Source: Croceicoccus naphthovorans (GTDB taxonomy: Bacteria > Pseudomonadota > Alphaproteobacteria > Sphingomonadales > Sphingomonadaceae). From it: DNA of 64,000 nucleotides. The position numbers and the translations under genes are program-made. This document shows, piece after piece, positions 9,765 through 33,153 of this stretch. Location: positions 2,173,501 to 2,237,500 of the forward strand of contig NZ_CP011770.1 in assembly GCF_001028705.1 (NCBI RefSeq), written 5' to 3'. Numbering within the stretch: position 1 is the stretch's first letter; every line of letters starts with the position of its first letter. Below the pieces are notes generated by a model. It searched no databases and had not been told where the DNA came from. It saw only the letters and a list, made by a program, of their open reading frames with translations.

Positions 9765-9768
9765 AGCT

Positions 9769-12105: not shown

Positions 12106-12158
12106 CAGGGTCATCCTCCGATCGAGCGGCCTTTCATCAGGCCTTGGATTGCTCGGTA

Positions 12159-12181
12159 TTGAAAGTTGAACCGACTTTCAA
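12159..12181. promoter_or_regulatory. Probable TetR operator between receptor and regulator
   Basis: TTGAAAGT-TGAACCG-ACTTTCAA is a perfect 8-bp inverted repeat with a 7-bp spacer, 23 bp in all. It lies 54 bp upstream of the receptor ATG and 48 bp upstream of the TetR ATG, where a repressor would block both divergent promoters. The size and symmetry suit a TetR-family dimer. Autoregulation is inferred. Confidence 0.65.
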
Positions 12182-12228
12182 GTCCTGATTGTTTGCCTTT
12201 GCCCGCGTTGCAGCGTAGCTGTTGCGAA

Positions 12229-12849
12229 ATGAGCACAATTCCTGCGGACGAAGGCGGCAAGACAAGCAAGGAACCACGCACCGAACGGGGCCGTCGAACG
12301 CTGCGCAAGTTGCTGGATGCCGCCGCGATAGAGTTCGGCGAAAAGGGCTTCCACGAAGCGTCGATCAGCGGGATCACTCGCCGCGCCGGAACCGCGCTGG
12401 GCAGTTTCTATACCTACTTCGATTCGAAGGACGAGATTTTCCGTGCGCTGGTTTCGGATATGAGCGGCATGGTCCGCGCGCGTTCCGCCGAAGAGGTGAA
12501 GCCGGGCATGAATGCGCTGGAGGTCGAGACCGCCGCGCTGACCGGGTTCCTGAAATTCGCGGTAGAGCACAAGGAAATCTACCGCATCGTCGACGAGGCA
12601 GAGTTCGTCGATCCAGACAGCTATCGCGAACACTATGTCTCAACGGCGAAGCGCATTCTCTCCCGCCTTGAAAACGGCATGGCCAGCGGCGAATTCCGCC
12701 CCGGCATGGGTGAGGCTCAGGCCTGGGCGCTGATGGGCATGTATGTCTTTCTTGGCATGCGATATGCCATCATGGGCGAGGATCGCCCGGTGGAAGAGAT
12801 GGTCGCGGTGGCGCGCGGCATCCTGGAGAACGGTATCCGTCCCGAGTAA
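12229..12849 (+). CDS. TetR/AcrR-family transcriptional regulator
   Basis: A 206-residue regulator. The N-terminal TetR HTH is plain: RRTLRKLLDAAAIEFGEKG, HEASISGITRRAG and GSFYTYFDSKDEIFRALV. The helical ligand-binding domain follows. I chose the ATG of MSTIPADEGG, since the longer in-frame version would place coding sequence across the palindromic operator and adds a cysteine-rich, unlikely leader. It is divergent from the receptor, hydrolase and MFS operon, so it probably represses that operon and itself until the imported compound, or its product, binds. Convergent with the FHS transporter gene, 18 bp apart. Confidence 0.9.
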   Translation: MSTIPADEGGKTSKEPRTERGRRTLRKLLDAAAIEFGEKGFHEASISGITRRAGTALGSFYTYFDSKDEIFRALVSDMSGMVRARSAEEVKPGMNALEVETAALTGFLKFAVEHKEIYRIVDEAEFVDPDSYREHYVSTAKRILSRLENGMASGEFRPGMGEAQAWALMGMYVFLGMRYAIMGEDRPVEEMVAVARGILENGIRPE

Positions 12850-12867: not shown

Positions 12868-14160
12868 TCAGGCGGGGCGGCGGGCGAAGACCCCGAACCC
12901 GGCGATGATGGCATAGCAGATCGCCGGCAGGATCAGCGCCAGCGCAAGGCTGCCCGTCACGTCGGCCAGCACGCCGAACACCACCGGCACGACTGCACCG
13001 CCGACGATGGCGACGTTGATGATCCCCGACCCGTCCGCCGCGCGCGAACCCAGCTTTTCGCAGGCGAGCGCAAAGATCGTCGGGAACATGATCGAATTCA
13101 TCAAGCCGACCGCCAGCAGGCTGTACCCTGCGACCGCCCCGCTGCTGAGCGCGGAGATCGCGATCAAGGCAATCGCCGCCGCCGCGTTGAAGGCAAGGAT
13201 CTTGCCCGGGCTGAACACCCGCAGCAGCGCCGAACCGATAAACCGGCCCACCATCGCCCCGCCCCAGTACAGCGTGATCATCCAGCCGATCACCGATTCC
13301 GGCTGACCGAATACTCGCGCCTCGGCAAGGTAGTTGATCAGGATCGAACCGATGGACACTTCTGCCCCGACATATAGGAAGATCGACAGCGCACCGAAGC
13401 CGAAGCGCGACCGCTTCAGCAGAGACAGCCCGCCAATCAGCGAGCTTTCCTCGTGATTTTCACCCTGCAACCGATTGCGAAACAACCAGACGGCCAGCGC
13501 GACCACGCCGATGGCCACCGCAAGGCCGAGGTAGGTGTTCACGATCATGTTGGATTCGGCAGTGCGATAGGCGCGCAAGGCCTCGCCCGTCAGCTGATCG
13601 GCGCTGACATCGGCCAGCTTGCCAAGGATCAGCCCCGCCCCGATAGCGGGAAACACCGTGGTGCCCAGCGAATTGAACGCCTGTCCGAAGGTCAGCCGGC
13701 TATGCGCGGTACGCTGCGGACCCAACAGGCTGATCAGCGGGTTCGCCACGACCTGCACCATGACCACCCCGCTGGCGAGGACGAAGTAGGCGAAGAGGAA
13801 GATCGCATAAGTCGCGGTCTGGCTGGCCGGGATGAACATAAGGCACCCCGCCATCATCGTGATCAACCCGATCACCGCGCCGCGCATATAGCCGACCTTT
13901 TTCACCAGCCGCGCCATCGGCAGGCCCATCACGAAATAGGCCGCGAAGAAGCAGAACTGCACCAGCATCGCCTGCGTGTAGTTCAGCGTGAACAGCTCTT
14001 TCAGTTTCGGGATAACCACGTCGTTCAGGGACGTGATGCCGCCGAAGATGAAGAACAAAGCAAAGACGAACGGCTGCAACCCCGGCGCGTCGATGTGGGT
14101 GCCCTCGTCCTCGATCGGATTCGGGTCGGTCGAGCTTGCAATATCGGGGGCGATTGCCAT
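12868..14160 (-). CDS. Sugar MFS transporter, FHS (FucP/GluP) family
   Basis: A 430-residue 12-helix proton/sugar symporter of the fucose/galactose/glucose (FHS) family. Family features are the FFIFGGITSLNDVVIPKLKE first helix, QFCFFAAYFVMGLPMA in the second, and VVANPLISLLGP with LTFGQAFNSLGT in the middle. It probably imports glucose or another hexose into the cytoplasm. AGGAG lies eight bases before the ATG. As the last gene of the beta-glucan locus it fits as uptake route for monosaccharide released by the GH3 enzyme encoded just upstream. Confidence 0.88.
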   Translation of the reverse strand: MAIAPDIASSTDPNPIEDEGTHIDAPGLQPFVFALFFIFGGITSLNDVVIPKLKELFTLNYTQAMLVQFCFFAAYFVMGLPMARLVKKVGYMRGAVIGLITMMAGCLMFIPASQTATYAIFLFAYFVLASGVVMVQVVANPLISLLGPQRTAHSRLTFGQAFNSLGTTVFPAIGAGLILGKLADVSADQLTGEALRAYRTAESNMIVNTYLGLAVAIGVVALAVWLFRNRLQGENHEESSLIGGLSLLKRSRFGFGALSIFLYVGAEVSIGSILINYLAEARVFGQPESVIGWMITLYWGGAMVGRFIGSALLRVFSPGKILAFNAAAAIALIAISALSSGAVAGYSLLAVGLMNSIMFPTIFALACEKLGSRAADGSGIINVAIVGGAVVPVVFGVLADVTGSLALALILPAICYAIIAGFGVFARRPA

Positions 14161-14226
14161 GCGGGCGTCTCCTCTTGCCGGGTCCGTCTGTCGCAGCCCG
14201 GCGCGGTTTTCTTTTATGTCAGGCGG

Positions 14227-16716
14227 TCAGTCCGCGAAAGCGGGGCAGTCCGACGTTCGCACCACCGGCGCAATGCGAGCGGAGAGCAGCGCGAGCGAAA
14301 GCCCCTCACCCGCAGACAGGAACATCGGCGTATCCATCTGCGACAGGTTCGCGCCCGCGTCGGCAAAGCATTGCAGCGGGATCGCAAGGCTGGAAACCTC
14401 ACCCTTGGGCGCGGCCTTCAGCCGTTCGGTCATGTCGACGGTACGCCCTGCAAAACCAAGCGTGACCGGACCGCTGCCTACGGAATCGATCCGCCATTCG
14501 ATGGCCAGCGATCCGCCCTCTGCCAACTGGTGCGACAGGTCTGCGGCAGGCCCTTCGATCAGGGCGTTGCCGTTTCCGGTCCATGTCAGCGCCTTGGCGT
14601 CTTCCTGCGCACGGACATCGACCGACCGGACAGAGACCAGACCGCCCGCGCTCTCGATCGGGGCCGAGGCCACATCGCGGCGGCCGCCTGCGTCCTCTAC
14701 CTTCAGCACCCACGGCGCCAGCGCCCGGCCCGCGCCAAAGAAGCTGGCGACGTTCAGCGCCTCTGCCATGTCCATGCCTGGATCTTCGGACAGAGTGCCG
14801 AACTGGGCGGGCCGCGCATAGCTCTGGCCATAGCCCAGCGGGAACAGTGGGCGGCCAATCGGCGCCTTCGCATCGCGCGGCCATGGGAACGACAGCGTGC
14901 CGGTGAAATCGCGCGGCGACTTGCCGTCCGCACCCGCGATCAGCACGTCGGCCACGCCCGCCCCCTGCGACCCGGGGAGCCATGCGGCCACGAACGCGTC
15001 GGAGGCGTTGATTTCGGGGCTGGTGAACATCGGGCGGCCCGAAAGGAAGACCGAGACCACCGGAATACCCTTGGCCTTCAGGCTTTTCAGAAGAGCAAGG
15101 TCGCTGGGGTTCGACGGCTGATAGTCCAGCGTCGGGACATCGCCTTGATACTCGGCATAGGGCGTTTCGCCAAAGACGACGATGGCGACATCGGGGGTCT
15201 GATCGAAACTGCCGTCTGCGGACAACGTGGCGCTGCCGCCCGCCTGCGTCACGGCGCTGTTCAAGCCATCCCAGATCGTCTGGCCGTTGCGGAAATCGTC
15301 ATGGGTGACGTCGGTGCCTTGCCAGCTGACCGTCCAGCCGCCCGACTGGATCGCCATCGAATCGGCGGCAGGTCCGGCGACCAGCACTTTCGCGCCCGGC
15401 TTGATCGGCAAGACCGACCCTTCGTTCTTCAGCAGGACCAGCGACTTCGCCACCGCTTCGCGAGCGACCGCAAGGTGCGCGGGCGCGCCGACGGCGGCAT
15501 GGTCGCGGCGCTGCATCGGCGGCGTGTCCATCAGGCCCAGCTTGAACTTCACGCGCAGGATGCGGCGCACCGCATCGTTCAGCCTCGCCTGCGTTATCGC
15601 CCCGCTGCGCGCCTGCGCCAGCGTGGTTTCATAAAGACCCTTCCAGCTATCGGGGGCCATGAACATGTCGAGCCCCGCCATGATCGCGCTGGGGCAATCG
15701 GTATTGGTGCAACCCGGCACCTGACCATGCGCGTTCCAGTCGCCGACGGTAAACCCCTGAAATCCCAAAGCACCCTTCAGCGCGTCGGTCAGCAGCGAGT
15801 GGTTGCCGTGGTTTTTTACGCCATTCCAGCTTGAGAAGCTGGCCATCACGGTCAGCGCACCTGCGTCGATCGCGGTGACGTAACCGGCGGCATGGATGTC
15901 GATCAGTTCGCGTTCCGAAATTTGCGCATCACCCTGATCGTCGCCGCCCAGCGTGCCGCCGTCGGCTAGGAAGTGCTTGGCTGTTGCGGCTACGCGGTCG
16001 GCGGGAATCTGCACCCCGCCTTCCAGCTTCCCCTGCAGGCCCAGCACCATTTCCTTGCCATAGCGGGCAACGATCTGCGGGTCGGAGGAATAGCCTTCAT
16101 ATGTCCGGCCCCAACGCGGATCCTGCGGCACGGCCAGCGTCGGCGCGAACGTCCATTCGATGCCGCTGCCCGCGATTTCCACCGCAGTCACTTCGGCAAT
16201 GCGCCGGATCAGCGCGGGATCGTGCGCCGCGCCCAGCCCGATGTTGTGCGGGAATACGGTCGCACCGGGAATGTTGTTGTGCCCGTGAACCGCGTCGACA
16301 CCGAAGATGATCGGGATCGCCACGCCCTTTTCGCGCGGCTCCAACGATACGGCGCGGAATTCACCGACCAGCCGATCCCAGTCCGCAGCGGTTGCCCGCT
16401 CGTTACCATAGGGGCCGCTGTTCCCGCCGGCCAGGATCGACCCGAGCGGATAAGTGCGCAGGTCTTCGGGAGAGATCGCGGAGATATCCGCCTGCACCAG
16501 TTGGCCGACCCGCTGTTCCAGCGTCATGCGCGCGATCAGGGCCGAGATGCGGTTTTCGGTCGCAAGGTCGGTAATCGCCGCCGGCGTGCGCGCGCTGGGC
16601 CAGTTGGCCGGGTTCGCGGTGGCGGCATCGGGTGTGTCAGAGGTGACAGTCTGTGCCGCGACGGGCGTCGCCATGCCGATCAGTCCAAGAAGTAAAATAT
16701 GCGGAGCAATCCTCAC
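14227..16716 (-). CDS. Exported glycoside hydrolase family 3 (exo-beta-glucosidase)
   Basis: An approximately 829-residue GH3 enzyme that removes glucose from beta-glucan oligosaccharides. A signal peptide ends near ATPVAAQ, so it works in the periplasm. Visible GH3 features are GVDAVHGHNN, PTLAVPQDPRWGRTYEGY, AKHFLADGG, and the nucleophile Asp (about residue 326) in GFTVGDWNAHGQ. The (alpha/beta)6 sandwich follows, then a C-terminal beta-rich extension. The length and the extension resemble ExoP-like 1,3/1,4-beta-glucosidases. I chose a GTG start, with GGGGA seven bases upstream; a TTG six codons earlier is also open. A LacI-type operator lies 25 bp upstream of the GTG. Confidence 0.92.
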   Translation of the reverse strand: MRIAPHILLLGLIGMATPVAAQTVTSDTPDAATANPANWPSARTPAAITDLATENRISALIARMTLEQRVGQLVQADISAISPEDLRTYPLGSILAGGNSGPYGNERATAADWDRLVGEFRAVSLEPREKGVAIPIIFGVDAVHGHNNIPGATVFPHNIGLGAAHDPALIRRIAEVTAVEIAGSGIEWTFAPTLAVPQDPRWGRTYEGYSSDPQIVARYGKEMVLGLQGKLEGGVQIPADRVAATAKHFLADGGTLGGDDQGDAQISERELIDIHAAGYVTAIDAGALTVMASFSSWNGVKNHGNHSLLTDALKGALGFQGFTVGDWNAHGQVPGCTNTDCPSAIMAGLDMFMAPDSWKGLYETTLAQARSGAITQARLNDAVRRILRVKFKLGLMDTPPMQRRDHAAVGAPAHLAVAREAVAKSLVLLKNEGSVLPIKPGAKVLVAGPAADSMAIQSGGWTVSWQGTDVTHDDFRNGQTIWDGLNSAVTQAGGSATLSADGSFDQTPDVAIVVFGETPYAEYQGDVPTLDYQPSNPSDLALLKSLKAKGIPVVSVFLSGRPMFTSPEINASDAFVAAWLPGSQGAGVADVLIAGADGKSPRDFTGTLSFPWPRDAKAPIGRPLFPLGYGQSYARPAQFGTLSEDPGMDMAEALNVASFFGAGRALAPWVLKVEDAGGRRDVASAPIESAGGLVSVRSVDVRAQEDAKALTWTGNGNALIEGPAADLSHQLAEGGSLAIEWRIDSVGSGPVTLGFAGRTVDMTERLKAAPKGEVSSLAIPLQCFADAGANLSQMDTPMFLSAGEGLSLALLSARIAPVVRTSDCPAFAD

Positions 16717-16740
16717 CGCGTTTCCCCATCCCAAATTGCA

Positions 16741-16756
16741 TTGTGAACGTTATCAA
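16741..16756. promoter_or_regulatory. LacI-type operator upstream of the GH3 gene
   Basis: TTGTGAACGTTATCAA fits TTGNNAACGTTNNCAA, the centrally symmetric AACGTT pattern typical of LacI-family sites. The same TGTGAACGTT core recurs upstream of the large TonB-dependent receptor of this locus. The LacI gene two genes away is the obvious candidate to bind it. Confidence 0.6.
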
Positions 16757-16774
16757 CTAAGCATTTGCACGCAT

Positions 16775-16797
16775 CCGGCGGGGTAGTCAACCCCGGC
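16775..16797 (-). terminator. Weak hairpin after the MFS gene
   Basis: GGGGT-AGTCA-ACCCC gives a 5-bp stem with some flanking GC pairing, between the MFS stop and the GH3 operator. There is no T-run. It may only dampen read-through from the MFS gene into the GH3 gene. Confidence 0.25.
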
Positions 16798-16811
16798 TGA
16801 CGCTTGGCAAA

Positions 16812-18023
16812 TCAACCTTTGCGGGAAAGCGTTCGCGCGGTGGAGATCAGCAGGAGGCAGGCGATGACCGCCAGCACGGCAAGGATCGCCATCAGCCCCG
16901 AATAGCCAAAGGCCGGTACCACCGCGATGGTCAGCCACGGCATGAACAGCGAAGGGACGGTGTTGGTCAGGTTGAAGATGCCAAGGTCGCGCCCACGATG
17001 CCGCGCACGGGGCAGGACGCGCAGGGTCTGGCTGGAATGCAGCGCCAGAAACACCGTGCTGGACAGGCCGAACACGACATAGCCCGACAATGCCAAAGCC
17101 ATGCCCTGCGCCAGTGCCATCGTCACCAGGCCCAGCGCCGCAATCGCCGCGCAGATCGCCAGCGGCACGATGGGCCGCCCCGCCCTGTCCGCCCAGCGGC
17201 CCGAGAGCAGCGCCAAGGGAACGGCGGCGGCCAGCACAAAGCCGAAGATGCGCGCGACTTCCGCGTCGGTCACAGCGCTATCGATCGAACGGAACCAGTA
17301 GAGCAGATAGGCGAACAGAGCCGCCTCTGCCACCTGAACCAAAAGGCGCGCCGCCCACATGCGCTTTACCGGCTTGGCCGGGTCCGCCGCTTCGGCAGGG
17401 CCGCGCAGATCGTCGCGCATCAGTTCGGGAAACGGCCTTGGCCTGCCGAACAGCAGCACCGGCAGGACGCAAACCGCGACCACCGTCGCGACGATCCACA
17501 ACCGCCCTTCCGGCCCGGCCAGACCGGGGATCGTCACCACCGCGCTCGTCACCGCTCCCGCCGCCGGGGCAAAGGCCATGAGGCCTCCGAGCAATCCCTT
17601 CTGCCCATCGGGAACGCAGTCCCCCGCCCATGCCGAAAGCGGCCCCATCATCATGTTGAGCATCACCTGCCACACCAGCAAAAGCGCAAGCAGCTGCCCC
17701 GCGCCCTGCGCCAGCGGCACCATCAGCAACAGCGCGCAATTCCCGGCCAGCCCCGCCGCGACCCATGCGCGGCGATATCCGGTCCTGTCGCTCAGCCAAC
17801 CGAACGCGATATTCGCAAGGCTGGCCGCGATCGCCCCGCCAAAGGTAAGGTACCCCAGCACCCGCACATCGCCCGCGCCCGCCATATCGGTCACGCGCAG
17901 CGGCAGCAGCACGGTCAGGAACGGGACATAGGCAATCGAACACCCGGCCCAGCCCAGCGCGTAAAGCAGGAGGAAGCGGGCGCTTTGCCGCGCATCGCCG
18001 CCTGCCTGCCCAAGCGCGTTCAC
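16812..18023 (-). CDS. MFS transporter of the beta-glucan locus
   Basis: A 403-residue, 12-helix inner-membrane carrier. The motif-A loop is GWLSDRTGYRRAW between helices 2 and 3, and its second-half copy is GRWADRAGRPIVP. The sequence resembles the glycoside-importing MFS carriers often found in sphingomonad glycan loci, but I cannot fix the substrate; oligosaccharide or glucoside uptake fits the context. The start ATG overlaps the stop of the LacI gene (ATGA), so regulator and transporter are translated together. Confidence 0.8.
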   Translation of the reverse strand: MNALGQAGGDARQSARFLLLYALGWAGCSIAYVPFLTVLLPLRVTDMAGAGDVRVLGYLTFGGAIAASLANIAFGWLSDRTGYRRAWVAAGLAGNCALLLMVPLAQGAGQLLALLLVWQVMLNMMMGPLSAWAGDCVPDGQKGLLGGLMAFAPAAGAVTSAVVTIPGLAGPEGRLWIVATVVAVCVLPVLLFGRPRPFPELMRDDLRGPAEAADPAKPVKRMWAARLLVQVAEAALFAYLLYWFRSIDSAVTDAEVARIFGFVLAAAVPLALLSGRWADRAGRPIVPLAICAAIAALGLVTMALAQGMALALSGYVVFGLSSTVFLALHSSQTLRVLPRARHRGRDLGIFNLTNTVPSLFMPWLTIAVVPAFGYSGLMAILAVLAVIACLLLISTARTLSRKG

Positions 18024-19069
18024 CTCGGCGGTGCGGTCGAGGCGCGCTCGACAAGGTCTGCCGGAACGACGACCGGCGCGTCCGGCACTTCGCCATCGCG
18101 ATGGGCGGCGATGATCAGGTCCACCGCCTTGGCCGCGACTTGCGCAATCGGCTGGTCCACGGCGGTCAATTGCGGATGGGTGAATTTCACGATCGGCGTA
18201 TTGTCGAAGCTGATGAGCGAAAGGTCCGCCGGGATCGCCAGCCCCTTTTCGCGTGCAACTTCCAGGGTGGCGAGCGCCATCTGGTCGTTGCTGGCGATGA
18301 TCGCGGTGGCCCGATTGGGTCCGTTCAGCAGCGCCTCGGCGCCCTCACGGCCCGATTCGAAAGAGAAATCGCCCTTGTGGAACAGCCCTGCGGTATCCAG
18401 CCCGCGCGTAGCCATCGCCTTTTCCCAGCCATCGGTACGCCAGCCGCTGACCGAATATTCGTCCGGCCCCGCGATAAAGCCGATGCGGCTGTGCCCCAGA
18501 TCGGCCAGATAATCCGTCGCCATCTCCGCCGCGCCATCGTCGTTCATGGTGATCGCGATGCCGCGCCCCGGAACCCCGGGGCTGATCCGTGCGAAGGGAA
18601 TGTCCTGCTTTTCCAGTACGCCGGTGATCAGCGGATTGTCGCTGTGCGGCGGGGTCAGGATTACGCCGTCGGGCTGCAACGCGGCAATCGCGGCGGTCAG
18701 CTCCCGCTCGATATGATCGGAGTGCGTGTCGACCAGTTCGAAGATCAGGCGATAGCCATGCTCGGCACATTTTAGCATGCCGCCCAGCAACATCTGGTCG
18801 ACCCAGTCCGCGCCCTGCCGTTCCTTCCAGTCGGCAATCGTACGATCGCGGTCGTTAAGCGCAAGGATCAGGTACGATCGCGACCCGCTCATCCGCTGGG
18901 CCGCGATCGATGGGACATAGCCCAACTTGTCGATCGAGGCCTGAACCTTCGCCTTCATCTCTGGCCGAACGTTCGGCTCCTTGTTGATGACGCGGCTTAC
19001 CGTCTGGAGCGAAACCCCAGCGTCGGCAGCGACATGCTTGATCGTAACGGCCTGGCGCCGACGTGCCAT
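18020..19069 (-). CDS. LacI-family transcriptional repressor of the glucan locus
   Basis: A 349-residue regulator. The N-terminal HTH is TIKHVAADAGVSLQTVSRVI, followed by the hinge helix IAAQRMSGSRS and a periplasmic-binding-protein-like sugar domain with DQMALATLEVAREKG and SLISFDNTP. It probably represses the locus until a glucan oligosaccharide binds. Candidate sites of the form TGNNAACGTTNNCA lie upstream of the GH3 gene and of the large TonB-dependent receptor. Only 13 bp separate it from the GH16 gene stop, so it sits inside the operon it is likely to control. Confidence 0.93.
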   Translation of the reverse strand: MARRRQAVTIKHVAADAGVSLQTVSRVINKEPNVRPEMKAKVQASIDKLGYVPSIAAQRMSGSRSYLILALNDRDRTIADWKERQGADWVDQMLLGGMLKCAEHGYRLIFELVDTHSDHIERELTAAIAALQPDGVILTPPHSDNPLITGVLEKQDIPFARISPGVPGRGIAITMNDDGAAEMATDYLADLGHSRIGFIAGPDEYSVSGWRTDGWEKAMATRGLDTAGLFHKGDFSFESGREGAEALLNGPNRATAIIASNDQMALATLEVAREKGLAIPADLSLISFDNTPIVKFTHPQLTAVDQPIAQVAAKAVDLIIAAHRDGEVPDAPVVVPADLVERASTAPPR

Positions 19070-19082
19070 CTCGCGATTCCCC

Positions 19083-20015
19083 CTATCGCTCGCAGGCGGA
19101 CCCGGTAGCCGGATCGGCGGCGCATTGCCAGATGCGAACCCAGTCGACCTTCATACGTTTCGGATAATCGCCGGGATCGAAGCCGCCAAGCCCCCGACCT
19201 TCGGGCAAACGACCGCCAACAGCAAGGTTGAGGATCAGGTGAAACGGCTGGTCAAACGGGGCCAGACGATTGCCGGGCGCGGCATCGCTGTACCACTCGC
19301 TGGCGGTGCGGATGGCAAAGGGTTTGCCATCCACGGTCCAGACCATGCGCTCTGCACTCCATTCCAGTCCAAAGACGTGATAGCCCGACAGGACCGGCGG
19401 ATAGGGCACTTCGTCGCCTTTGAGCGCATTTTCAGGCGGCTCGCCGCCGAAGTGCAGTGTGCCGAGGATCGTGTTTTCCTTACCACCTGGGCAGCCCTCG
19501 CATGGCACGCCGAGGTTGACCGCCTCCATGACGTCGATCTCGCCCGACAGCGCCCACAGGCCATAGGCGTCGTGCTCTGGCATCATCCAGATCGCGGGCC
19601 ATGTGCCCTGCCCCTGCGGCAGCTGCGCGCGCACCTCGATCTTGCCGTATTGCCACGCTGCCTTGCCGCGCGTGACCATGCGGGCGCTGGTATAGGGCTT
19701 GGTGTCCACCGGCACTTTTACGCCCGGCTTGCGACGGTGGATCGGGATGGCGGGGCCGGTCGTTTCCTCCTCATGTGCCTCGATCACCAGCACGCCGTCC
19801 TCTATGCGCGCGTTGCGGGCATGATCGGTATAGCACTGGCGTTCGTCATTCGCGCCGCCCCAGCAGTCGATGTCAAAGTCCCACTTAGTGCGGTCTATGT
19901 CTGCCATGTCGAATTCGTCCGACCAGACGAGCTCCCACTCCGGTTCGGCGGGGGGCACGGTGGCACAGGCGCTCAGGCTCCAACCAAAGGCAAGCGCAGC
20001 AATTGCTTGTCGCAT
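19083..20015 (-). CDS. GH16 beta-glucanase lipoprotein (laminarinase-like)
   Basis: A 310-residue endo-beta-glucanase. The N-terminus MRQAIAALAFGWSLSACATV is a lipoprotein signal with lipobox LSAC, so it is probably tethered to the outer membrane. The GH16 active site GEIDVMEA has nucleophile E159, assisting D161 and acid/base E164. The spacing E-I-D-V-M-E (the beta-bulge form), with VWSDEFD at the front and WPAIWMMPE before it, is typical of laminarinase-like 1,3(4)-beta-glucanases. The ATG overlaps the halogenase stop as TGATG; an upstream in-frame start would lie inside the halogenase gene and gives a charged, unlikely leader. Confidence 0.93.
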   Translation of the reverse strand: MRQAIAALAFGWSLSACATVPPAEPEWELVWSDEFDMADIDRTKWDFDIDCWGGANDERQCYTDHARNARIEDGVLVIEAHEEETTGPAIPIHRRKPGVKVPVDTKPYTSARMVTRGKAAWQYGKIEVRAQLPQGQGTWPAIWMMPEHDAYGLWALSGEIDVMEAVNLGVPCEGCPGGKENTILGTLHFGGEPPENALKGDEVPYPPVLSGYHVFGLEWSAERMVWTVDGKPFAIRTASEWYSDAAPGNRLAPFDQPFHLILNLAVGGRLPEGRGLGGFDPGDYPKRMKVDWVRIWQCAADPATGSACER

Positions 20016-21511
20016 CAGGCCGCTTCCGCCTCCTGCGCGCCGCAGTACTTTGCCACGTAATCGGCGTGGGCTGGCAGACTGCCGACCGTTTTCGCGACTG
20101 TTTCGCGCAGGCCGCGCAGCAAGTGTTCGAGTTCGCGGTCCGAAAGCTTGCCCGCGACCGGGTGGTGGCTTTGCGGCATGATCCCCTGCCCCATCATCAC
20201 CTGTATCCACGAATTCTCGACGAACAGTTCCTCGTTCGTGCGGAACACGCGGCCGGTTTCGCGGAACAGCGCGATCTTGTGCGCAAGACTGTCGGGGATC
20301 TCCATGCTGGCGCAGTGCCGCCAGAACGCGGAATCGCGGCGGTCCGTCGCCTTGTAGTGCAGGATCAGGAAATCGCGAATCTGCTCCATGTCCTGCATCT
20401 GCTGCGCGTTGAATTCGGCCTCATCGCGTTCCGACACGCGGCCTGCGGGCAGCATGCGGATCACGCGCATGATCGCGCGCTGGATCAGGTGGATCGAGGT
20501 CGATTCGAGCGGCTCCATAAAGCCCGACGACAGCCCGATGGCGACACAGTTGCGATGCCACTGCTTGCGCCGCGCACCGGTGACGAAACGCAACCGGTTG
20601 GTCTTTGTCGTCGTCTCGCCCTCGATATTGCCCAGCAGGCGTTCCTCTGCCGCATCGTGATCGAGATAGCGGCTGCAATAAACGATGCCGTTGCCAACCC
20701 GGTGCTGCAGCGGGATGCGCCACTGCCAGCCCGCATCGTGCGCCATCGCACGGGTATAGGGCACCGCCGGACGCACGCTGCTGGTCTGGACCGCGATGGC
20801 GCTGTCGCAAGGCAGCCAATGGGTCCAGTCGTCGTAGCCAATGTGCAGCGCCTGCCCCATGATCAGCGCGCGGAAGCCGGTGCAATCGATGAACAGGTCG
20901 CCCTCGATCCGGGTGCCGCTTTCCAGCGTCAGCGCGGCGACATCGCCGCTCTCGCCGTCCATTTCGACATGCGCGATCTTGCCCTCGACGCGCTGCGTGC
21001 CCTCGCCTTCGGCAATGCCGCGCAGGAAACGGGCGAAGGCGGTGGCGTCCAGTTGAAACGCATAGTTCAAGCGCCCGTCGGGCAAGTGCGCGAACCTGCT
21101 TTCCCGCGCGGCGACCAGTTCGGTGCAGTATTCGTCATACGAAACGTCGTGCCCGCGCGCCTTGCCTTCCATCCAGAAGTGCTGGAAGCCCGCCGTCCAG
21201 TGGTCCTTGCCCGTCCCGCCGAACGAGTGGAAATAGCTTTCGCCCGGCACGCGCCAGTTATCGAACTGGATGCCCAGCTTGAATGTCGCATGGGTGGCCC
21301 GCATGAAATCCGGTTCGGGAATGTTCAACAGTCGCAGATAGTTGACCAGCGGCGGGATCGTGCTCTCTCCCACCCCGACCGTGCCGATCATGTCGCTTTC
21401 CACCAGCGTGACGTGTGCGGTGCGGCCCAGCGTGCGCGACATCGCGGCGGCGGTCATCCACCCGGCGGTGCCACCACCGGCTATGACGATGCGGATCGGT
21501 TGCTGGGTCAT
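20015..21511 (-). CDS. Flavin-dependent 'tryptophan halogenase' family protein, copy 1
   Basis: A 498-residue FADH2-dependent halogenase-fold protein. The FAD motif [11 protein letters not shown] is at 8-18, the halogenase lysine at K78 (ATFKLG, matching Lys79 of PrnA), the diagnostic WxWxIP is intact as W262-Q-W-R-I-P267, and the catalytic-Glu region reads SSGFMEPLEST. The enzyme should therefore be able to make and hold hypohalous acid if given reduced flavin; no flavin reductase is next to it. Its real substrate is unknown, and its place between glucan genes argues against a secondary-metabolite role. It follows the cupin gene with a 4-bp overlap. Confidence 0.9.
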   Translation of the reverse strand: MTQQPIRIVIAGGGTAGWMTAAAMSRTLGRTAHVTLVESDMIGTVGVGESTIPPLVNYLRLLNIPEPDFMRATHATFKLGIQFDNWRVPGESYFHSFGGTGKDHWTAGFQHFWMEGKARGHDVSYDEYCTELVAARESRFAHLPDGRLNYAFQLDATAFARFLRGIAEGEGTQRVEGKIAHVEMDGESGDVAALTLESGTRIEGDLFIDCTGFRALIMGQALHIGYDDWTHWLPCDSAIAVQTSSVRPAVPYTRAMAHDAGWQWRIPLQHRVGNGIVYCSRYLDHDAAEERLLGNIEGETTTKTNRLRFVTGARRKQWHRNCVAIGLSSGFMEPLESTSIHLIQRAIMRVIRMLPAGRVSERDEAEFNAQQMQDMEQIRDFLILHYKATDRRDSAFWRHCASMEIPDSLAHKIALFRETGRVFRTNEELFVENSWIQVMMGQGIMPQSHHPVAGKLSDRELEHLLRGLRETVAKTVGSLPAHADYVAKYCGAQEAEAA

Positions 21512-22527
21512 CGGCTAAGGGTCCTGAGCAGGAAGGCGCGAAGGCGCCCGGCGGTTTCGGGGGTAAGCGGATTGAGAACGGAGCGAGCGTGTTCGGGGAT
21601 ATGCGCGGTCACATTCTCATCCGCGTCGAAAACATAGTGATCGAACAGGTCGCGCCAGACCTTGCGGTCCTTTTCGGGCAAGTCGCGGATCGTCATCATC
21701 GCGTGGTTCAGTGCATCCTGCGGCTGGCCCAGATAGCGCGGCGTATCGCGCCACCAGTAGTTCACCAACACGTTGAACGGGGCCAACCCCTCGACATGGT
21801 GCCACCACATCGACGGCACGAAGATCGCATCACCGGGTTCGAGTTCGGCGACTTGCGCATGGCAGAGCGCCTCTTGGAAACGCGGGTGCGCGGCGAAATC
21901 GGGTTGTTCGAAATCGACCATCGAAATCGCGCGGCCTGCAGGCGTGTTGTCGACAGGGCCGAGGTAGAGGTTGCGGAACTGGTCGGGCGGCAGGACCGTG
22001 AACCGGCGACGTCCAGCGGCGCAGACCGCAAGGTTGTCGGGAAAATCGTTGTGCGCGGCGATACGCGTCTTGGTGCCGATCCAGATCGAGGCGAGCGCAT
22101 CGCGATTGCCGAGATCGACATGGTTCGCATCGTGCAGCCCGCGAAAATGCTCATGCACGTCGATAGAGGCGAGGTAGATCGCGGGCGACTGTTCCATCGC
22201 CTCTCCCTCATCCATTTTCTGAAAAATCGTCGGCAGCCTGGCGCGTGAGGTGCGGAAATTCATCTGCATCGTATCGTCGTAGAACAGACGACCGTCGCTC
22301 TCCGGCGCGGCAACCGAGACCATGAAGGGCCGCTCCACCGCGTGGTTGAGCAGGTACCGCCGCGCCTCTGCGGATGACATCTGTGCGGCCCGCACCAGCG
22401 GCCAATCCGCCGCCAGCCCGCGCACCACGAACGGCTGGTCCGCCCCGCGCAGCATCGCGTCGAGCGCGCCAGGCTGGGCCACCTCGCGCTCTGCGACATG
22501 CGGAAGAGCGGTAACGGTATCAGGCAT
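21508..22527 (-). CDS. Cupin-like (JmjC-fold) protein of the halogenase cluster
   Basis: A 339-residue cupin_8/FIH-like protein, often called Pass1-related in sphingomonad and Xanthomonas genomes. The iron-site pattern is visible as HND in AAHNDFPDN and a later His in WWHHVEG, with VRGLAADWP at the N-terminus and VNYWWRDTP after the core. This suggests a 2-oxoglutarate/Fe(II)-type dioxygenase or a protein hydroxylase, but activity is unproven. I chose the ATG of MPDTV, eight bases before the SapC stop; a start ten codons upstream is possible. In this cluster it might modify a protein or glycan together with the halogenases. Confidence 0.85.
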   Translation of the reverse strand: MPDTVTALPHVAEREVAQPGALDAMLRGADQPFVVRGLAADWPLVRAAQMSSAEARRYLLNHAVERPFMVSVAAPESDGRLFYDDTMQMNFRTSRARLPTIFQKMDEGEAMEQSPAIYLASIDVHEHFRGLHDANHVDLGNRDALASIWIGTKTRIAAHNDFPDNLAVCAAGRRRFTVLPPDQFRNLYLGPVDNTPAGRAISMVDFEQPDFAAHPRFQEALCHAQVAELEPGDAIFVPSMWWHHVEGLAPFNVLVNYWWRDTPRYLGQPQDALNHAMMTIRDLPEKDRKVWRDLFDHYVFDADENVTAHIPEHARSVLNPLTPETAGRLRAFLLRTLSR

Positions 22528-23236
22528 GGACCGACTGGCGGTTCTTGCGCGCGACAAGGTCGGTCAGGTGCGAGAGCGAGGCGAGTGCCATGAAGATCGG
22601 CATCAGGTGCCCCGCCGTGTGCAATTCGCCGAGCGCAGCCGCATCCAGTGTGCGCAGGCGATCCTCGTTGATGATGTGAAACCCGACGAGGCTGCGCCTG
22701 GCCCCGTCGTCCAGCTCAACCTCCAGGGTAAAGGGTTCGAGCAGGTCATATGCCTTCAGCGCAGCGAAGAAGTCCGCACATTCACGATAGCCTGCATCGA
22801 GCAAGCCCAGCTTTCCCGCGGTATCCTCCAGATAGGGCGTCGCCTCGCCCGCATCGTCGAACAGGCGGACGCCATCGACATGTCCGGCGCGCGGGTGCGC
22901 CATGTCGATATGGACTTGCGCCGGGCCTTCGCCATCGGCGCTACGCCCGATCAAGAACGGCTGAATGGCGAGCGCCAGCGGGCGATAGAGCGCGTCCCAC
23001 TGTCCATCCTTCAGGAACAGATTCTCGCCATTTTCGAACCCGAACAGCGCGACCGCGTGGAACCGGTCGTCGGCGGGGTTCTTGTGGAACAGGATCGGGA
23101 AATGCGCCTGCACCTGCCGGAATTCGACCGGCACGGTGACACACGACATGACCGCATCGCCCAGTTCGGCATCGGGCTGCATCGCGACCCGCAGATCGCG
23201 GTGGGCTTGCGGGTCGAGAACGGCGTGCTGGCTCAT
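22520..23236 (-). CDS. SapC-family protein
   Basis: A 238-residue protein of the SapC family, named after a Campylobacter S-layer-linked gene but found in sphingomonads, Caulobacter and Alteromonas beside TonB-dependent receptors. Family features are [26 protein letters not shown], and the [13 protein letters not shown] end. There is no signal peptide or membrane helix, so it is probably cytosolic. Function is unknown. The ATG of MSQHAV overlaps the stop of halogenase 2 (ATGA) and is preferred to an ATG three codons earlier. It also overlaps the cupin gene, so four genes here are coupled. Confidence 0.87.
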
Positions 23237-24756
23237 GCGGGGCATCCTGTGGCTTGGCGGACGGGCGCGGTGTTGCGCAGGGTATCGAGGTATGCGCGAT
23301 TGGTGGGCAGCGCGGAAGCAAGCTGACGCGCGCGGCGGGAGACTTCACCGCCAGCGCTTTGCCATGTCGGCAGACGCGGTGCGGGTGCGCCCATGCCGTA
23401 TAGCACGTACTGCCAGCTGGCCGCCGGGAAGATCTCATCCGCCATCGGGAAATCGGCGCTGGTCGGCACATGATTGCGCCACAGTGTCAGCAGATCCGCA
23501 AGGTTGTCCGGCACGGTCTCGCGGTGCGCCTGCCAATAGGCACCACCGCGGTCCGAGAGGACGTAGTGCAGCTTGAGGAAATCAACGATCCTGTCCCAAC
23601 GCGTGCGGAAAAGCTGGTTGAAACGGCGGGCGTGGATGTCCATCTCCGCCCGGGTTTCGGGAAATCCGTCCATCAGCGCGCGCAGCGACAATTCGATCAT
23701 GACAATGGCGGAAGCTTCCAGCGGCTCCACGAACCCTGCCGACAGCCCGATGGCAAGGCAATTGCCGATCCAGAACCGGTCGAGATGCCCGCTTTCGAAC
23801 CGCAGCAGGCGCGGTTCGGGTACCGGTACCCCCGGCAAGGCCCGCGCGACGTAATCGCGCAAGGTAGCAAGCGCCCGATCGTCGGAACAGAACCGCGAGG
23901 CATAGACGCACCCGATCCCACGCCGTGTCGGCAGGGCAATATCCCATAACCAGCCCGCATCGTGCGCCGTGCCGACGGTGACCGAGGCAATGGCGCTATC
24001 CGGCGCGGTGGGCACTTGCGCGGCCAAGGCTCGGTCGTTGAACAGCACGTCTGACCGGTCGATCCGCCCCGCCCCCATTTCGCCTGCGATCAGCAGTCCG
24101 CGCATGCCGGTGCAATCGATGTAGAGATCGCCCGACAACACTTCGCCGCTATCCAGCACGAGCGCCGCGATGTCGCCGTTTGCCGCGCGGTCCACGCCCT
24201 CGATCCGCGCGGCAACATGCCGCACGCCCAAACCCAGGGCATGGCGCTTCAGCAGATCGACCAGCTTTCCCGCGTCGAGGTGGTAGCCATAGTTCAGCGC
24301 CCCGGCGTAACCCGGCATTGCTTTTTGGCGCGGGGCGAGACCTTGCTCGCAAACCTCGGCCTGCGGCGTCACCGCGTCGGCGAAACCGCCGCCCGCCGCC
24401 GTCCACGCAGCAACCGCATCGCGCGGTGCATCGCCCACCGGTGAGGTGAATGGATGCAGATAGCTGTCGCCAGCCGACCCGTCGCGCCAGCCGTCAAACC
24501 GCGACCCCTGCTTGAACGAAGCATCGCAGGCGGTGAGGAATTCTTCCTCGGCGATCCCGATGGCGGCCAGCGTCGCGCGCATGGTCGGCCATGTACCTTC
24601 GCCCACGCCGATAGTCGGAATGTCGGGCGCCTCGACCAAGGTCACGGCAAGCGGGCGGGCAACGTCGCGGGGACCGCGCGCGGCTATCGTGCAGGCCGCA
24701 AGCCATCCGGCTGTGCCTCCTCCGGCGATCACGACATGATCGACAGTGCCGCTCAT
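23233..24756 (-). CDS. Flavin-dependent 'tryptophan halogenase' family protein, copy 2
   Basis: A 507-residue halogenase-fold flavoprotein, paralogous to copy 1. It keeps the FAD motif [11 protein letters not shown] (8-18), the flavin-loop GVGEGTWP, the halogenase lysine K82 (ASFKQG) and the [11 protein letters not shown] glutamate region. The WxWxIP motif is altered: W269-L-W-D-I-A274, with Ala in place of Pro. That motif blocks mono-oxygenation near the flavin, so this copy may have shifted chemistry or be non-halogenating. First gene of the coupled halogenase, SapC, cupin, halogenase block, 223 bp behind the TonB-dependent receptor. Confidence 0.9.
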
Positions 24757-24824
24757 GGTCCTTGCATCCTCTCGGCCGCTTTGACAGTCCGCCCTAGACT
24801 AACGCCATTTACTAACGCGAAAGC

Positions 24825-24854
24825 CGCCCGCGCGCGAGGGAGTGTGCGCGGGCG
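24825..24854. terminator. Hairpin between TonB-dependent receptor and halogenase 2
   Basis: CGCCCGCGC and GCGCGGGCG form a perfect 9-bp GC stem around a 12-base loop. It lies about 125 bp downstream of the receptor stop and 70 bp upstream of the halogenase start. It may act as a partial terminator or as a 3' stabiliser that lets the receptor be made in excess over the downstream enzymes. No T-run follows. Confidence 0.45.
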
Positions 24855-24979
24855 ACCTTCTGCTATCGGCGGGGATTGGACGGGGCAATGCTGCCCTTCC
24901 CTCGCCTTTTGCGGCGACCGTGGGTGCCAGAGAGGTCGCTCAACCCGCCAGCACCCGATCGCCGATCCCATCATTGCGA

Positions 24980-27916
24980 TCAGAAGGTGTAACGTACCCC
25001 CGTCGCATAGCGGGCATAGCCCGGTGCGGCGAAGTACGTCGTCTGATCGTTGCGCATGTGGCCCCGACGGTCGGCATTGGTAATGTTGATGCCTTCCACG
25101 AATGCCGTCAGGCCCTCCATGAACTCATAGCTCGCGCTGGCGTCCCACTGGCCATAGCTTTCGACGTAGAACGGGTCGGAACCATAATTGGCAAGGAAGC
25201 CATCGCGCCAGTTGTAGGCGACGCGCGCCTGCAGCGGGCCCTTGTCATAGAACAGGACCGCGTTGGCACTGTCGCTGACGCCGGTGATTGCGAACTGGGT
25301 GGCGGTATAGCGCAGCGTATTGTCGTAATACGTGTCGCTGTCCACGATGGTGTAGTTCAGGATCACGCCAAAGCCGGTGTCCCACAGGTTGTGCTGGACC
25401 GCGAATTCCCAGCCGTCGATCGTCGCGGTGCGGTCACCATTGAACGGGGTCGACAGGCGGAAGTTCACCAGCGGATCGTCGGGCTGCCCCAGGATGCCGC
25501 CCGTAACGGGGTCGATCACCTCTGGGTAATTGGCCGCGATATAGGCCAGCTGGTCGCCGAAGGTGGAATCGGCGGGCAGGTTGGCAATCGCCTCGTCGAT
25601 CAGTTCACCGCCAAGGCCCTGAGCCGGGTTGGTCAGGCCGTATTGCGGGCCTTCGCTGATCAGCGTGACCGGGAAGTCCGACACCTTCTTGCGGAAATAG
25701 CCGACCGACGCATAGCTGGCGGGGGCATAGTACCACTCTGCCGACAGGTCGATGTTCTTCGACTTGTAGGGCAGCAGGCCCGGGTTGCCGACCGATGCGG
25801 TACTGCCGCCATCCGGACGAATCGGGGCCGCAAGCGCGATGCCGCCCTGCAGCTGGCCATAGTTCGGGCGCGTGATCGTGTGGCTGTAGCTGGCGCGCAG
25901 CTTCACGTCCTGGATCGGCGACATGTCGAAGTCGATCGCGGGCAGCCAGTTGTCGTAGCTTCCCTTGCGGGTTTCGGTCGTGCCGCCCGAATAGTTGATC
26001 GCGATTTCGTTTGCGCCGGTCCACGCGGTGCTGACCGCCACCGGCACCAGCGCCGAAGAGTTGATCTTCGTCTTTTCGTACCGCAGGCCAAGCCGCAGGT
26101 GCGCCTTATCTGCCAGAAGGTCGAAGGTGTGCAGCGACTGAATGTACGGTGCAAACGTCTTTTCGCGGATGCGACGGTCGATGGTGTAGTCGGCAAGACA
26201 GGTGCCCGCACCCGCGCCGGTGTTGGCGCAGATGCCCAGCTCATCGTCGAGCAGGTTGATAAGGCCGACGGTATCGACCTTGAAATAGTTCGGGATGATC
26301 GCGGGATCGTCCGAACCTTCCATACCGGCCAGGTCGTCCGACAGGTCGGTCATGTCGAACAGGTCGTCGGGCGTTTCGTCGGCGGGGAGCGTACCGCTCC
26401 ACGTTTCGTTCTGGATAAAGCCGTAGGCCGACCGCACCTTGTTGTCGGTATAGGTCGCGCCGAAATCGAGGCTTTCGATGAACGAAGCGTCGAAATCGTA
26501 GTGGCCCTTCAACGCGACTTCGTTGATCCGGTCCCGCATATAGGCATTGCGGAAGGCGTTGCCCGCAGGACGGATGTTCGATGCATCGATTTCCGATCCC
26601 GGAAACATGTCGACCGAGATCACCGGCATGTCGGTGGTGAAGTCCACGGTCTGCGCCTCTACACCATAGATCGCCGCGCCCACCGCAATGTTGCTGCCAT
26701 AAGGCGAGGTGGGCTTCGACGTGGCGGTCGAATGGTGCGCGTCGAGGACCAGGGACAGGCCGCCCGGCCCTTCCCATTCGAGATTGCCGCCCAGCGAGTG
26801 GTTGATCGAACGGTTGGCCGCAACCGCGCCGGTAATGGCAAGGTCCTTGTTCGGGCCGAACGTTTCGGAATAGAAATTCGGGCCCGCCGCCGGGCCGTCG
26901 GTCCAGCTGCTGCTCGTGTTTTCATGGTTGAACCACACGCCGATGGAATTCGTGCGCGCTTCGATCGTGTTTTGAGAGAACGTGTAGTCGAGCGTACCGG
27001 TCAGGTTGTCTGTCGGGCGAATCTGGAACACCGCCTGCCCGTTGAACCGTTCGCGGTCGATGTCGGTAAAGTCATACCCGGCATTCTGCGTTACCTGATA
27101 GATATCGGTCGCATCAGGGCGATTTTCGACATTGTCGCCATAGCCGAGCGAACCCCAGTTGTTCTCGTCACCCAGATAGCCTTCGCGCCAACCCGCGTTG
27201 AACTGGGCCAAGCTGGCCTTGCGGCGCTGGTACGATCCGGAGACCATCACGCCCATCGTGTCGTCGGCGAACGTGGTGCTGTAAATGCCCGAGATTTCGG
27301 GCGTGATCTTCGTGCCTTCGAAGGTGTGGTCCATGACCGCCTTCGCGCCAACGCTGCCGCGCGCGCCGGGGCGGTCCAGCGGGCGCGGGGTCTTGATGTT
27401 GATGACCGAGCCGATACCGCCGGTGGGCAGCGAGGCGCGGCCCGACTTGTAGACCTCGACCCCCGCAATACCCTCTGACGCGAGGTTCGCGAAATCGAAG
27501 CTGCGCGAAACCGGCGCTTCCGTGCCGTTGCCAAGGCCAGATGCGGGCATCTGGCGACCGTTCAGCAGGACAAGGTTGAATTCGGGACCGAAGCCGCGAA
27601 CCGTGACGTTGGAGCCTTCGCCGTTGCTGCGGTCGATCGACACGCCGGTGATGCGCTGAAGCGATTCGGCAAGGTTGGTATCGGGGAACTTGCCGATATC
27701 CTCGGCACTGATCGCATCGACGACACCCTGCGCCTCGCGCTTGATGTCGGCCGCGGCTTCCAGCGATGCGCGGATACCGGTGACGAGGATGACGTTATCA
27801 TCCTCTGCCGCGTCGTCGGCGTCTTGCGCGAAAGCGATTTGCGGCATCGTGGCCATAGCGATGGCCGATGCTCCAAGCATGAAACGAATAGGTGTGCGCT
27901 GGCTGCGTCGCGCCAT
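24980..27916 (-). CDS. TonB-dependent outer-membrane receptor of the glucan locus
   Basis: A 978-residue receptor, probably carrying glucan oligosaccharides. The signal peptide ends at MPQIAFAQDA. A TonB-box-like VILVTGIRAS, the segment DAISAEDIGKFPDTNLAESL and a plug with RITGVSID, TVRGFGPEFN and LLNGRQMPA mark the long class of sphingomonad and Caulobacter carbohydrate receptors. The barrel ends in YARYATGVRYTF with the usual terminal Phe. The start is the ATG of MARRSQ, preceded by GGGGAGAGGA; a longer version would begin inside the operator. It leads the polysaccharide operon and has tandem TGTGAACGTT sites upstream. Confidence 0.94.
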   Translation of the reverse strand: MARRSQRTPIRFMLGASAIAMATMPQIAFAQDADDAAEDDNVILVTGIRASLEAAADIKREAQGVVDAISAEDIGKFPDTNLAESLQRITGVSIDRSNGEGSNVTVRGFGPEFNLVLLNGRQMPASGLGNGTEAPVSRSFDFANLASEGIAGVEVYKSGRASLPTGGIGSVINIKTPRPLDRPGARGSVGAKAVMDHTFEGTKITPEISGIYSTTFADDTMGVMVSGSYQRRKASLAQFNAGWREGYLGDENNWGSLGYGDNVENRPDATDIYQVTQNAGYDFTDIDRERFNGQAVFQIRPTDNLTGTLDYTFSQNTIEARTNSIGVWFNHENTSSSWTDGPAAGPNFYSETFGPNKDLAITGAVAANRSINHSLGGNLEWEGPGGLSLVLDAHHSTATSKPTSPYGSNIAVGAAIYGVEAQTVDFTTDMPVISVDMFPGSEIDASNIRPAGNAFRNAYMRDRINEVALKGHYDFDASFIESLDFGATYTDNKVRSAYGFIQNETWSGTLPADETPDDLFDMTDLSDDLAGMEGSDDPAIIPNYFKVDTVGLINLLDDELGICANTGAGAGTCLADYTIDRRIREKTFAPYIQSLHTFDLLADKAHLRLGLRYEKTKINSSALVPVAVSTAWTGANEIAINYSGGTTETRKGSYDNWLPAIDFDMSPIQDVKLRASYSHTITRPNYGQLQGGIALAAPIRPDGGSTASVGNPGLLPYKSKNIDLSAEWYYAPASYASVGYFRKKVSDFPVTLISEGPQYGLTNPAQGLGGELIDEAIANLPADSTFGDQLAYIAANYPEVIDPVTGGILGQPDDPLVNFRLSTPFNGDRTATIDGWEFAVQHNLWDTGFGVILNYTIVDSDTYYDNTLRYTATQFAITGVSDSANAVLFYDKGPLQARVAYNWRDGFLANYGSDPFYVESYGQWDASASYEFMEGLTAFVEGINITNADRRGHMRNDQTTYFAAPGYARYATGVRYTF

Positions 27917-27972
27917 CAGTCCTCTCCCCTGACCCGGCGAATCGGTACACTCCGACGCGTCCGGAATTACGT

Positions 27973-27998
27973 TGTGAACGTTCATGTGAACGTTCCCA
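27973..27998. promoter_or_regulatory. Tandem LacI-type operators upstream of the glucan receptor
   Basis: Two TGTGAACGTT cores stand 12 bp apart. The second, TGTGAACGTTCCCA, fits TGNNAACGTTNNCA exactly; the first ends in TG instead of CA. The same pattern precedes the GH3 gene. They lie about 57-82 bp before the receptor ATG, where a repressor would cover the promoter. The matching regulator is presumably the LacI protein of the locus. Confidence 0.6.
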
Positions 27999-33061: not shown

Positions 33062-33153
33062 GTCTATCCTCTCTTCGTACAGACCAAATCCTACGGCCCC
33101 GCCCTGCGTTCCGACAAATTGAAAACGGTTTGGCCATGATATAGACAGCATCT

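Follow-up and report, generated by a model that had tools for sequence, protein, structure and literature searches.

A receptor-linked halogenase-SapC-cupin module in a likely beta-glucan utilisation operon of Croceicoccus naphthovorans

Why are two genes of the flavin-dependent halogenase family placed inside a gene cluster for sugar uptake in Croceicoccus naphthovorans, and on what may their products act there? The cluster lies on the minus strand at positions 12868-27985 of the window, which is the whole analysed stretch of 64,000 nucleotides (contig NZ_CP011770.1, positions 2,173,501 to 2,237,500), and comprises ten genes found by open reading frame (ORF) listing and identified by Pfam and NCBIfam. 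Four of them, encoding the halogenase-family proteins Hal1 and Hal2, a SapC family protein, and a cupin, form a module next to the gene of a TonB-dependent receptor. The preliminary description of this DNA noted that halogenases track glycan loci and gave no explanation; the association is real, but the module follows the TonB receptor and not the glycan. The module core is receptor-linked rather than glycan-linked, and the reading tentatively preferred here is that the module chemically modifies a protein in the cytosol, most likely the receptor before its export. The ten genes in transcription order are given below.

24980..27916, minus strand: TonB-dependent receptor (TIGR01782, 608 bits), with the probable ATG at 27916 placed by a GGGGAGAGG ribosome-binding site
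23233..24756, minus strand: Hal1, flavin-dependent halogenase family (Trp_halogenase PF04820, 394 bits)
22520..23236, minus strand: SapC family protein (PF07277, 216.9 bits against a curated cut-off of 28.9)
21508..22527, minus strand: Cupin_8 protein, candidate JmjC/FIH-like 2-oxoglutarate oxygenase (PF13621, 217 bits)
20015..21511, minus strand: Hal2, flavin-dependent halogenase family (Trp_halogenase PF04820, 615 bits)
19083..20015, minus strand: GH16 laminarinase-like lipoprotein (47 bits; ATG at 20015, lipobox LSAC)
18020..19069, minus strand: LacI-family regulator (Pfam/NCBIfam)
16812..18023, minus strand: MFS transporter (Pfam/NCBIfam)
14227..16734, minus strand: GH3 exo-beta-glucosidase/glucanase with Exop_C domain (235 bits)
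12868..14160, minus strand: FHS/gluP-type glucose/galactose transporter (gluP, 264 bits)

Several starts in this list are the probable ones: the receptor is taken to begin at 27916 and not at 27985, SapC at 23236 (the public protein has 238 amino acids), the cupin at 22527, and GH16 at 20015 according to its lipoprotein signal. The nearest structure to GH16 is laminarinase 3iln (E 2.7e-51) and the nearest to GH3 is the exo-1,3/1,4-beta-glucanase 3usz (E 7.9e-206), and because of these two resemblances beta-glucan is the likely substrate and the cluster likely represents a laminarin-type beta-glucan utilisation operon, in agreement with the preliminary description. The gene set of a CUT locus (carbohydrate utilization locus containing a TonB-dependent transporter), that is, TonB receptor, glycoside hydrolases, regulator, and inner-membrane sugar transporter, is thus present in one cluster.

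The first matter to decide is whether the neighbourhood is accidental, which according to the preliminary description would follow from a gene order unique to this strain. The SapC-alignment scan of named genome records gave at least 536 confirmed relatives, of which the best 80 loci were kept; these are biased by selection to close relatives of the window SapC, and gene counts across them were taken from labelled ORFs. The order receptor-(Hal1)-SapC-cupin-Hal2 was found in 74 of the 80 loci, 62 with Hal1 and 12 without it. The receptor is present in 79 loci, the cupin in 78, Hal2 in 77, LacI in 76, Hal1 in 67, GH3 and MFS in 61 each, and GH16 in 39. Among the six exceptions three (L172, L180, and L186) are loci cut by contig ends, L178 carries a GH16 match between receptor and Hal1, L119 has doubled halogenase ORFs, perhaps frameshifts, and L148 gave no Hal2 match. 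The order-wide sample of Sphingomonadales included 75 SapC matches, 3 of them in the own genome, and from the other 72 matches 60 were fetched, of which 25 have both a receptor and a halogenase in their vicinity. Of the sample taken from the phylum's other classes 20 loci were fetched, one without a labelled SapC (L254), and receptor, halogenase, and SapC occur together in 5 of the remaining 19 SapC loci; locus L265 from this sample has the five-gene order plus GH3. Annotated plasmids carry such sets as well: beta-galactosidase, receptor, halogenase, SapC, and agarase in Catenovulum adriaticum (Gammaproteobacteria), and receptor-SapC-cupin-halogenase-GH16-LacI-MFS-GH3 in Sphingobium sp. RAC03. 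A partial Hal2 relative was also seen on one 5.4-kb viral contig.

The junctions between the genes are conserved too. In the window Hal1/SapC, SapC/cupin, and cupin/Hal2 overlap by 4, 8, and 4 nt, Hal2/GH16 by 1 nt, and LacI/MFS by 4 nt, while GH16 and LacI are separated by 13 nt, so the ten same-strand genes with six close or overlapping junctions were correctly described before. Across loci each junction was measured from whichever in-frame start codon lay closest to the stop of the preceding gene, a choice biased towards short distances. SapC and cupin overlap by 8 nt in 71 of 78 loci, cupin and Hal2 by 4 nt in 52 of 77, and Hal1 and SapC by 4 nt in 24 of 67. Such kept overlaps may be taken as a sign of translational coupling. 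The gap from the receptor to the next gene has a median of 99 nt across loci and amounts to 223 nt in the window. Upstream of the receptor two candidate operators were located.

27975..27984, no strand: operator candidate 1, LacI-type palindrome TGAACGTTCA, exact match, upstream of the receptor start
27987..27996, no strand: operator candidate 2, palindrome TGAACGTTCC, one mismatch

They are the only two palindrome sites with at most one mismatch in the 64-kb window, and both are placed directly before the receptor start; two sites are reached in 45 of 100 shuffled sequences, so the count is unremarkable and the position is what matters. In related loci TGAACGTTCA with at most one mismatch was found near the receptor ORF in 62 of 77 cases against 0.7 expected. 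The zone searched reached from 350 nt upstream to nucleotide 100 of the ORF, and the remaining parts of these loci served to derive the expectation; the loci themselves are related to each other. The palindrome resembles a LacI operator and is therefore a candidate operator, to which LacI would bind; promoter and terminator scans gave nothing above chance. Because of the conserved gene order, the kept overlaps, and this palindrome, a chance neighbourhood or annotation artefact, for which no supporting evidence was found, can be given a negligible probability: the cluster is not a chance neighbourhood, it is real and widespread.

The second matter is which member of the cluster is accompanied by the module. 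The glycoside hydrolase domains near modules outside the closest group belong to GH3, GH20, GH67, GH1, GH43, melibiase, and GH9, as found in a neighbour-family count of 69 neighbours hand-picked from 170, with 25 of 86 families listed. The plasmid copy of Sphingomonas parapaucimobilis (L271, NZ_CP155750.1 228976-247677) is composed of receptor-SapC-cupin-halogenase and has no annotated glycan gene in its 18.7-kb stretch, though the gene table is incomplete, and may serve as a natural minimal module for experiments. Its flanks are formed by arsenic/sulphur genes and a type VI secretion cluster.

Among 42 loci with eight shared genes the patristic distances of the receptor correlate with those of Hal2 (0.71), SapC (0.69), Hal1 (0.64), and cupin (0.57), and the values for the glycan and regulator genes are lower (LacI 0.47, MFS 0.49, and GH3 0.47); the partial correlations with the receptor are 0.50 for Hal2, 0.42 for SapC, 0.28 for GH3, 0.07 for cupin, and -0.10 for Hal1. 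The module therefore tracks the receptor rather than the glycan, given the several glycan types, the one copy with no annotated glycan gene, and the co-divergence with the receptor. In a quick tree of 120 receptors the SapC-linked ones form a group of 65, a group of 5 without cupin, and one stray, which is the second receptor of a locus. A TonB receptor was also found in the stretch of 38 of 40 halogenase loci without SapC, hand-chosen among the matches listed, and was not seen in L100 and L106. The number of halogenases per receptor varies from one to four, and a quick tree of 211 halogenases can be read as a set of position-specific lineages. As judged from these trees and counts, the module type and the halogenase set follow the receptor clade. 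In the own genome both halogenases sit in this locus, together with one of the four TIGR01782-class receptors that score over cut-off, the three others being elsewhere. In favour of the link, among 14 Sphingomonadales genomes without a halogenase match a receptor of this class over cut-off is present in 4.

The third matter is whether Hal1 and Hal2 are halogenases at all. The flavin-dependent halogenase signature (GxGxxG, Lys, Glu, and WxWxI(P)) is complete in both: Hal1 has catalytic Lys82 and Glu347 and a WxWxI motif with Ala in place of the motif Pro, and Hal2 has Lys78, Glu336, and WxWxIP. Of 91 Hal1 sequences 90 retain Lys82 and all 91 retain Glu347; of 174 Hal2-type sequences, among which paralogues of multi-halogenase loci are counted, 164 retain Lys78 and 167 retain Glu336. 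The nearest solved relative of Hal2 is 6y1w (E 3.2e-201), which we take to be Xcc4156, followed by 6frl (E 1.5e-129), presumably BrvH, and by 5uao (MibH; 1.3e-49), while the nearest ones of Hal1 are 9ltb and 2pyx. One paralogue clade of eight was observed in multi-halogenase Sphingomonadales loci (L079, L083, L085, L086, L098, L102, L036, and L100); seven members have lost both the catalytic Lys and Glu and that of L100 has lost Lys only, and such proteins are perhaps binding or scaffold subunits.

The retention of this clade would suit an explanation in which the halogenase-fold proteins serve as flavin monooxygenases, or as redox or chaperone proteins that help the receptor to mature, and do not halogenate, and weak matches to the maturases QhpG, LodB, and GoxB point the same way, being, at 18-31 bits, far under their cut-offs. 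This explanation is improbable, since Lys, Glu, and WxWxI hardly vary among Hal1 and Hal2 proteins and since halogenation is established for BrvH, a characterised relative, according to the available part of its report (PMC5945002). A LodB/GoxB/QhpG-type maturase assignment was itself rejected, the cut-offs being 240-400 bits.

Where these proteins would act is suggested by their N-termini. No signal peptide was seen on Hal1, Hal2, SapC, or cupin when the N-termini were read by eye and without a predictor, and the Rossmann GxGxxG motif for flavin adenine dinucleotide (FAD) begins at residue 12 of the halogenases; for these reasons the four module proteins should act in the cytoplasm. In the preliminary description the module was assigned to a step of glycan capture, with hypohalite made at the glycan, an aromatic target, or a protein target of the receptor system as options, and of these the last one fits best. 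Production of hypohalite at the glycan, or action on glycan-attached aromatic groups, has co-location with glycan genes as its single argument, and is very improbable: none of the module proteins has a visible signal peptide, and modules are also near agarase, GH20, and GH67 genes and once without any annotated glycan gene, a range to which an aromatic on the glycan is poorly suited. To our knowledge, aromatic groups are absent from laminarin and agar.

Enzymes with this halogenase fold classically act on small molecules, and so it must be considered that the product of the module is a small aromatic compound, halogenated or hydroxylated, such as a signal or ligand derived from indole or a peptide, which the receptor would sense or import together with the sugar; a receptor-specific ligand would likewise yield co-divergence. 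We consider this rather unlikely. As was described before, no flavin reductase is found among the ten operon genes (two PF01613 genes are elsewhere in the genome), and a scan of 20 window proteins revealed no nonribosomal peptide synthetase or polyketide synthase domain and no other recognisable natural-product gene, including any for scaffold synthesis or activation. With one to four halogenases per receptor in position-specific lineages, many ligands would be needed, and the best sequence relatives of the cupin are protein hydroxylases and C2orf60. In the available part of the BrvH report the enzyme does not accept free Trp and its bromination of indole, at C3, is slow, and the authors doubt indole as the natural substrate and consider that larger substrates could enter (PMC5945002).

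The scanned window also includes a separate cassette adjoining the operon at 7561-12849, with a TetR regulator on the plus strand and a second TonB receptor, an alpha/beta hydrolase, and an MFS transporter on the minus strand. At the upstream border (30034-33151) carboxyl transferase and acyl-CoA dehydrogenase genes are placed, which probably serve acyl-CoA catabolism and stand outside the operon.

Of the two non-halogenase members of the module, the cupin speaks for a protein substrate. The best PDB matches of the cupin are FIH (3kcx and 1h2k; E about 1e-18), then C2orf60, which we take to be TYW5, and JMJD5. The HxD...H iron triad (HxD and a distal His) is present in 105 of 105 sequences, and Arg presumably stands where FIH has the 2-oxoglutarate lysine; by these resemblances the cupin is a candidate FIH-like/JmjC 2-oxoglutarate oxygenase. 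The AlphaFold model of SapC is confident (pLDDT 93.4) and had no fold match among PDB chains or viral models, which makes it a structural handle on SapC. Residues His15, Glu41, Asn75, and Trp83 (numbering of the 241-aa ORF) are invariant in 22 SapC sequences and could mark a binding site.

Outside the module SapC has other companions. Giant proteins, recognised by frame length, are beside it in five loci, with YDG repeats in L019, RTX in L255, and DUF5649 in L257; in L007 no repeat domain was found in the first 1500 residues, and the fifth is L249. The giant repeat proteins are probably exported. In one more locus (L252) SapC is accompanied by OEP, HlyD, and M50-like genes. RND efflux genes are beside SapC in seven loci by size, one of them (L047) confirmed by Pfam. 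The second SapC of the own genome (C1:1212403-1213056, L006) is placed behind a FAD-linked oxidase-type gene, and this type of locus recurs in the window's family (L008, Pfam-confirmed; L009, L013, and others by position), with no receptor or halogenase nearby.

The giant repeat proteins beside SapC may be cited in favour of another protein or peptide as the target of the module, such as the GH16 surface lipoprotein, a partner in the periplasm, or a precursor peptide that escaped annotation, and peptide-directed halogenases, namely SrpI and MibH, exist according to the accessible part of PMC10858898. Nevertheless, GH16 is found in about half as many loci as the receptor (39 against 79 of 80), and the median gap of 99 nt and the overlaps leave little space for a precursor gene, small ORFs elsewhere in the locus not having been searched; this possibility is quite unlikely.

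The remaining matter is whether the receptor itself shows signs of being the target. The median Trp content is 1.18% in receptors of the SapC type, 1.09% in those beside one halogenase, and 1.30% in those beside several, against 0.85% in unlinked receptors. The enrichment in halogenase-linked receptors has an uncorrected p of 1.3e-4 for all and 8e-4 without the SapC type, Trp is higher beside several halogenases than beside one (p 0.006), and Tyr, Phe, His, and Met gave no such enrichment. Of 106 linked receptors 100 carry Trp at one or more of positions 277, 361, and 529, as numbered on the long ORF, and of 14 unlinked ones 2 do. Counted from Met 27916 these are positions 254, 338, and 506, which would be in long extracellular loops, a placement made by counting 22 strands in the AlphaFold model of the receptor (pLDDT 78.6); Trp 328, in the same numbering, would be at the rim. 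A separate comparison of residue enrichment in linked versus unlinked receptors is dominated by phylogeny and is not used here as proof.

The preferred reading, which we consider less probable than not, may be formulated as follows. Beta-glucan sugars would relieve the LacI repressor, after which receptor, Hal1, SapC, FIH-like cupin, and Hal2 would be co-produced in the cytoplasm, the last four from overlapping genes, and the module enzymes would act on the new receptor chain ahead of its exit through Sec. SapC would hold or present this chain; aromatic side chains, most likely those of tryptophans in extracellular sugar-binding loops, would be halogenated or hydroxylated by Hal2, which is the halogenase most regularly present in this type of module, and by the optional Hal1; and the cupin would hydroxylate a further side chain, with tuned glycan capture as the outcome. 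Enzyme activity in vivo, a protein as the substrate, and the receptor as that protein are what we infer in this scheme. In its general form, that Gram-negative bacteria halogenate (and hydroxylate) side chains of their own TonB receptors before export by means of halogenases specific to the receptor, a hydroxylase resembling FIH, and SapC acting as a presenter with a new fold, the proposal is conceivable and doubtful.

Several observations weigh against modification of the receptor. The three Trp positions were picked post hoc, the p-values are uncorrected for five residues and for kinship, and the unlinked set is small, with many members missing the whole loop. A comparison of 97 receptors places no Trp column with the best separators of loci with and without Hal1; the best aromatic columns are position 990 (Trp/Tyr/Phe; 71% versus 19%) and Tyr665 (56% versus 7%, alternating with Phe), both contrasts being uncorrected for kinship, and the 27 loci labelled as Hal1-minus include a mislabelled one that has Hal1 (L171) and one with a Hal1 match only in a looser ORF set (L176). 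The co-divergence contrast may partly reflect distance along the operon. TIGR01782-class receptors exist without the module, as the three outside this locus in the own genome demonstrate, and the available parts of papers on the Xanthomonas loci do not mention a halogenase. The positions of SapC beside FAD-linked oxidase and RND efflux genes ill fit a surface-protein partner, the seven paralogues without both catalytic residues indicate that not every such protein is an enzyme, and the modification would have to outpace export.

If the reading of receptor modification is true, it would represent a kind of protein modification, serving the uptake of nutrients by bacteria, that is undescribed as far as the searched literature shows, possibly a new layer of outer-membrane protein modification, and the orphan halogenases of BrvH/Xcc type would gain a natural substrate. 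No description of the halogenase-SapC-cupin-receptor unit was found in open-licence PMC literature, where the module as a unit is thus undescribed, and subscription papers or preprints may hold one. In omics work transcripts of tryptophan halogenases are still read as natural-product machinery, as in the accessible text of PMC11337851. The association of halogenases with TonB receptors, together with paralogues specific to a position and the pairing of SapC with the cupin, leads to a narrow and testable substrate hypothesis.

Among the known systems, the CUT loci of Proteobacteria (Blanvillain 2007, PMC1790865, as far as its available text goes) are similar in that receptor, GH16, GH3, LacI, MFS, and FHS are here in one same-strand unit, and they differ by the four-gene module, which in the window is inserted between receptor and hydrolases; in a term search halogenase, SapC, and cupin were absent from the main text of PMC1790865 and from PMC7142613, in the parts available. 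The BrvH and Xcc4156 halogenases are the closest solved relatives of Hal2 and share its motifs, whereas their natural substrate is unknown and a TonB context is not named in the accessible reports; here the gene context is defined. The FIH/JmjC hydroxylases resemble the window cupin in structure matches and in the conserved HxD...H, while the latter is bacterial and receptor-linked. MibH and SrpI, the halogenases of ribosomally synthesised and post-translationally modified peptides (RiPPs), belong to the same superfamily as Hal2, as the 5uao match indicates, and modify peptidyl Trp according to the available part of PMC10858898; the difference is that the present locus shows no recognised gene for a precursor peptide or for RiPP maturation, small ORFs not having been searched. 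Finally, SapC of the giant-protein loci is of the same Pfam family as the window SapC, and in those loci it is found with giant repeat proteins or with OEP, HlyD, and M50-like genes, whereas in the window it is paired with a receptor and halogenases.

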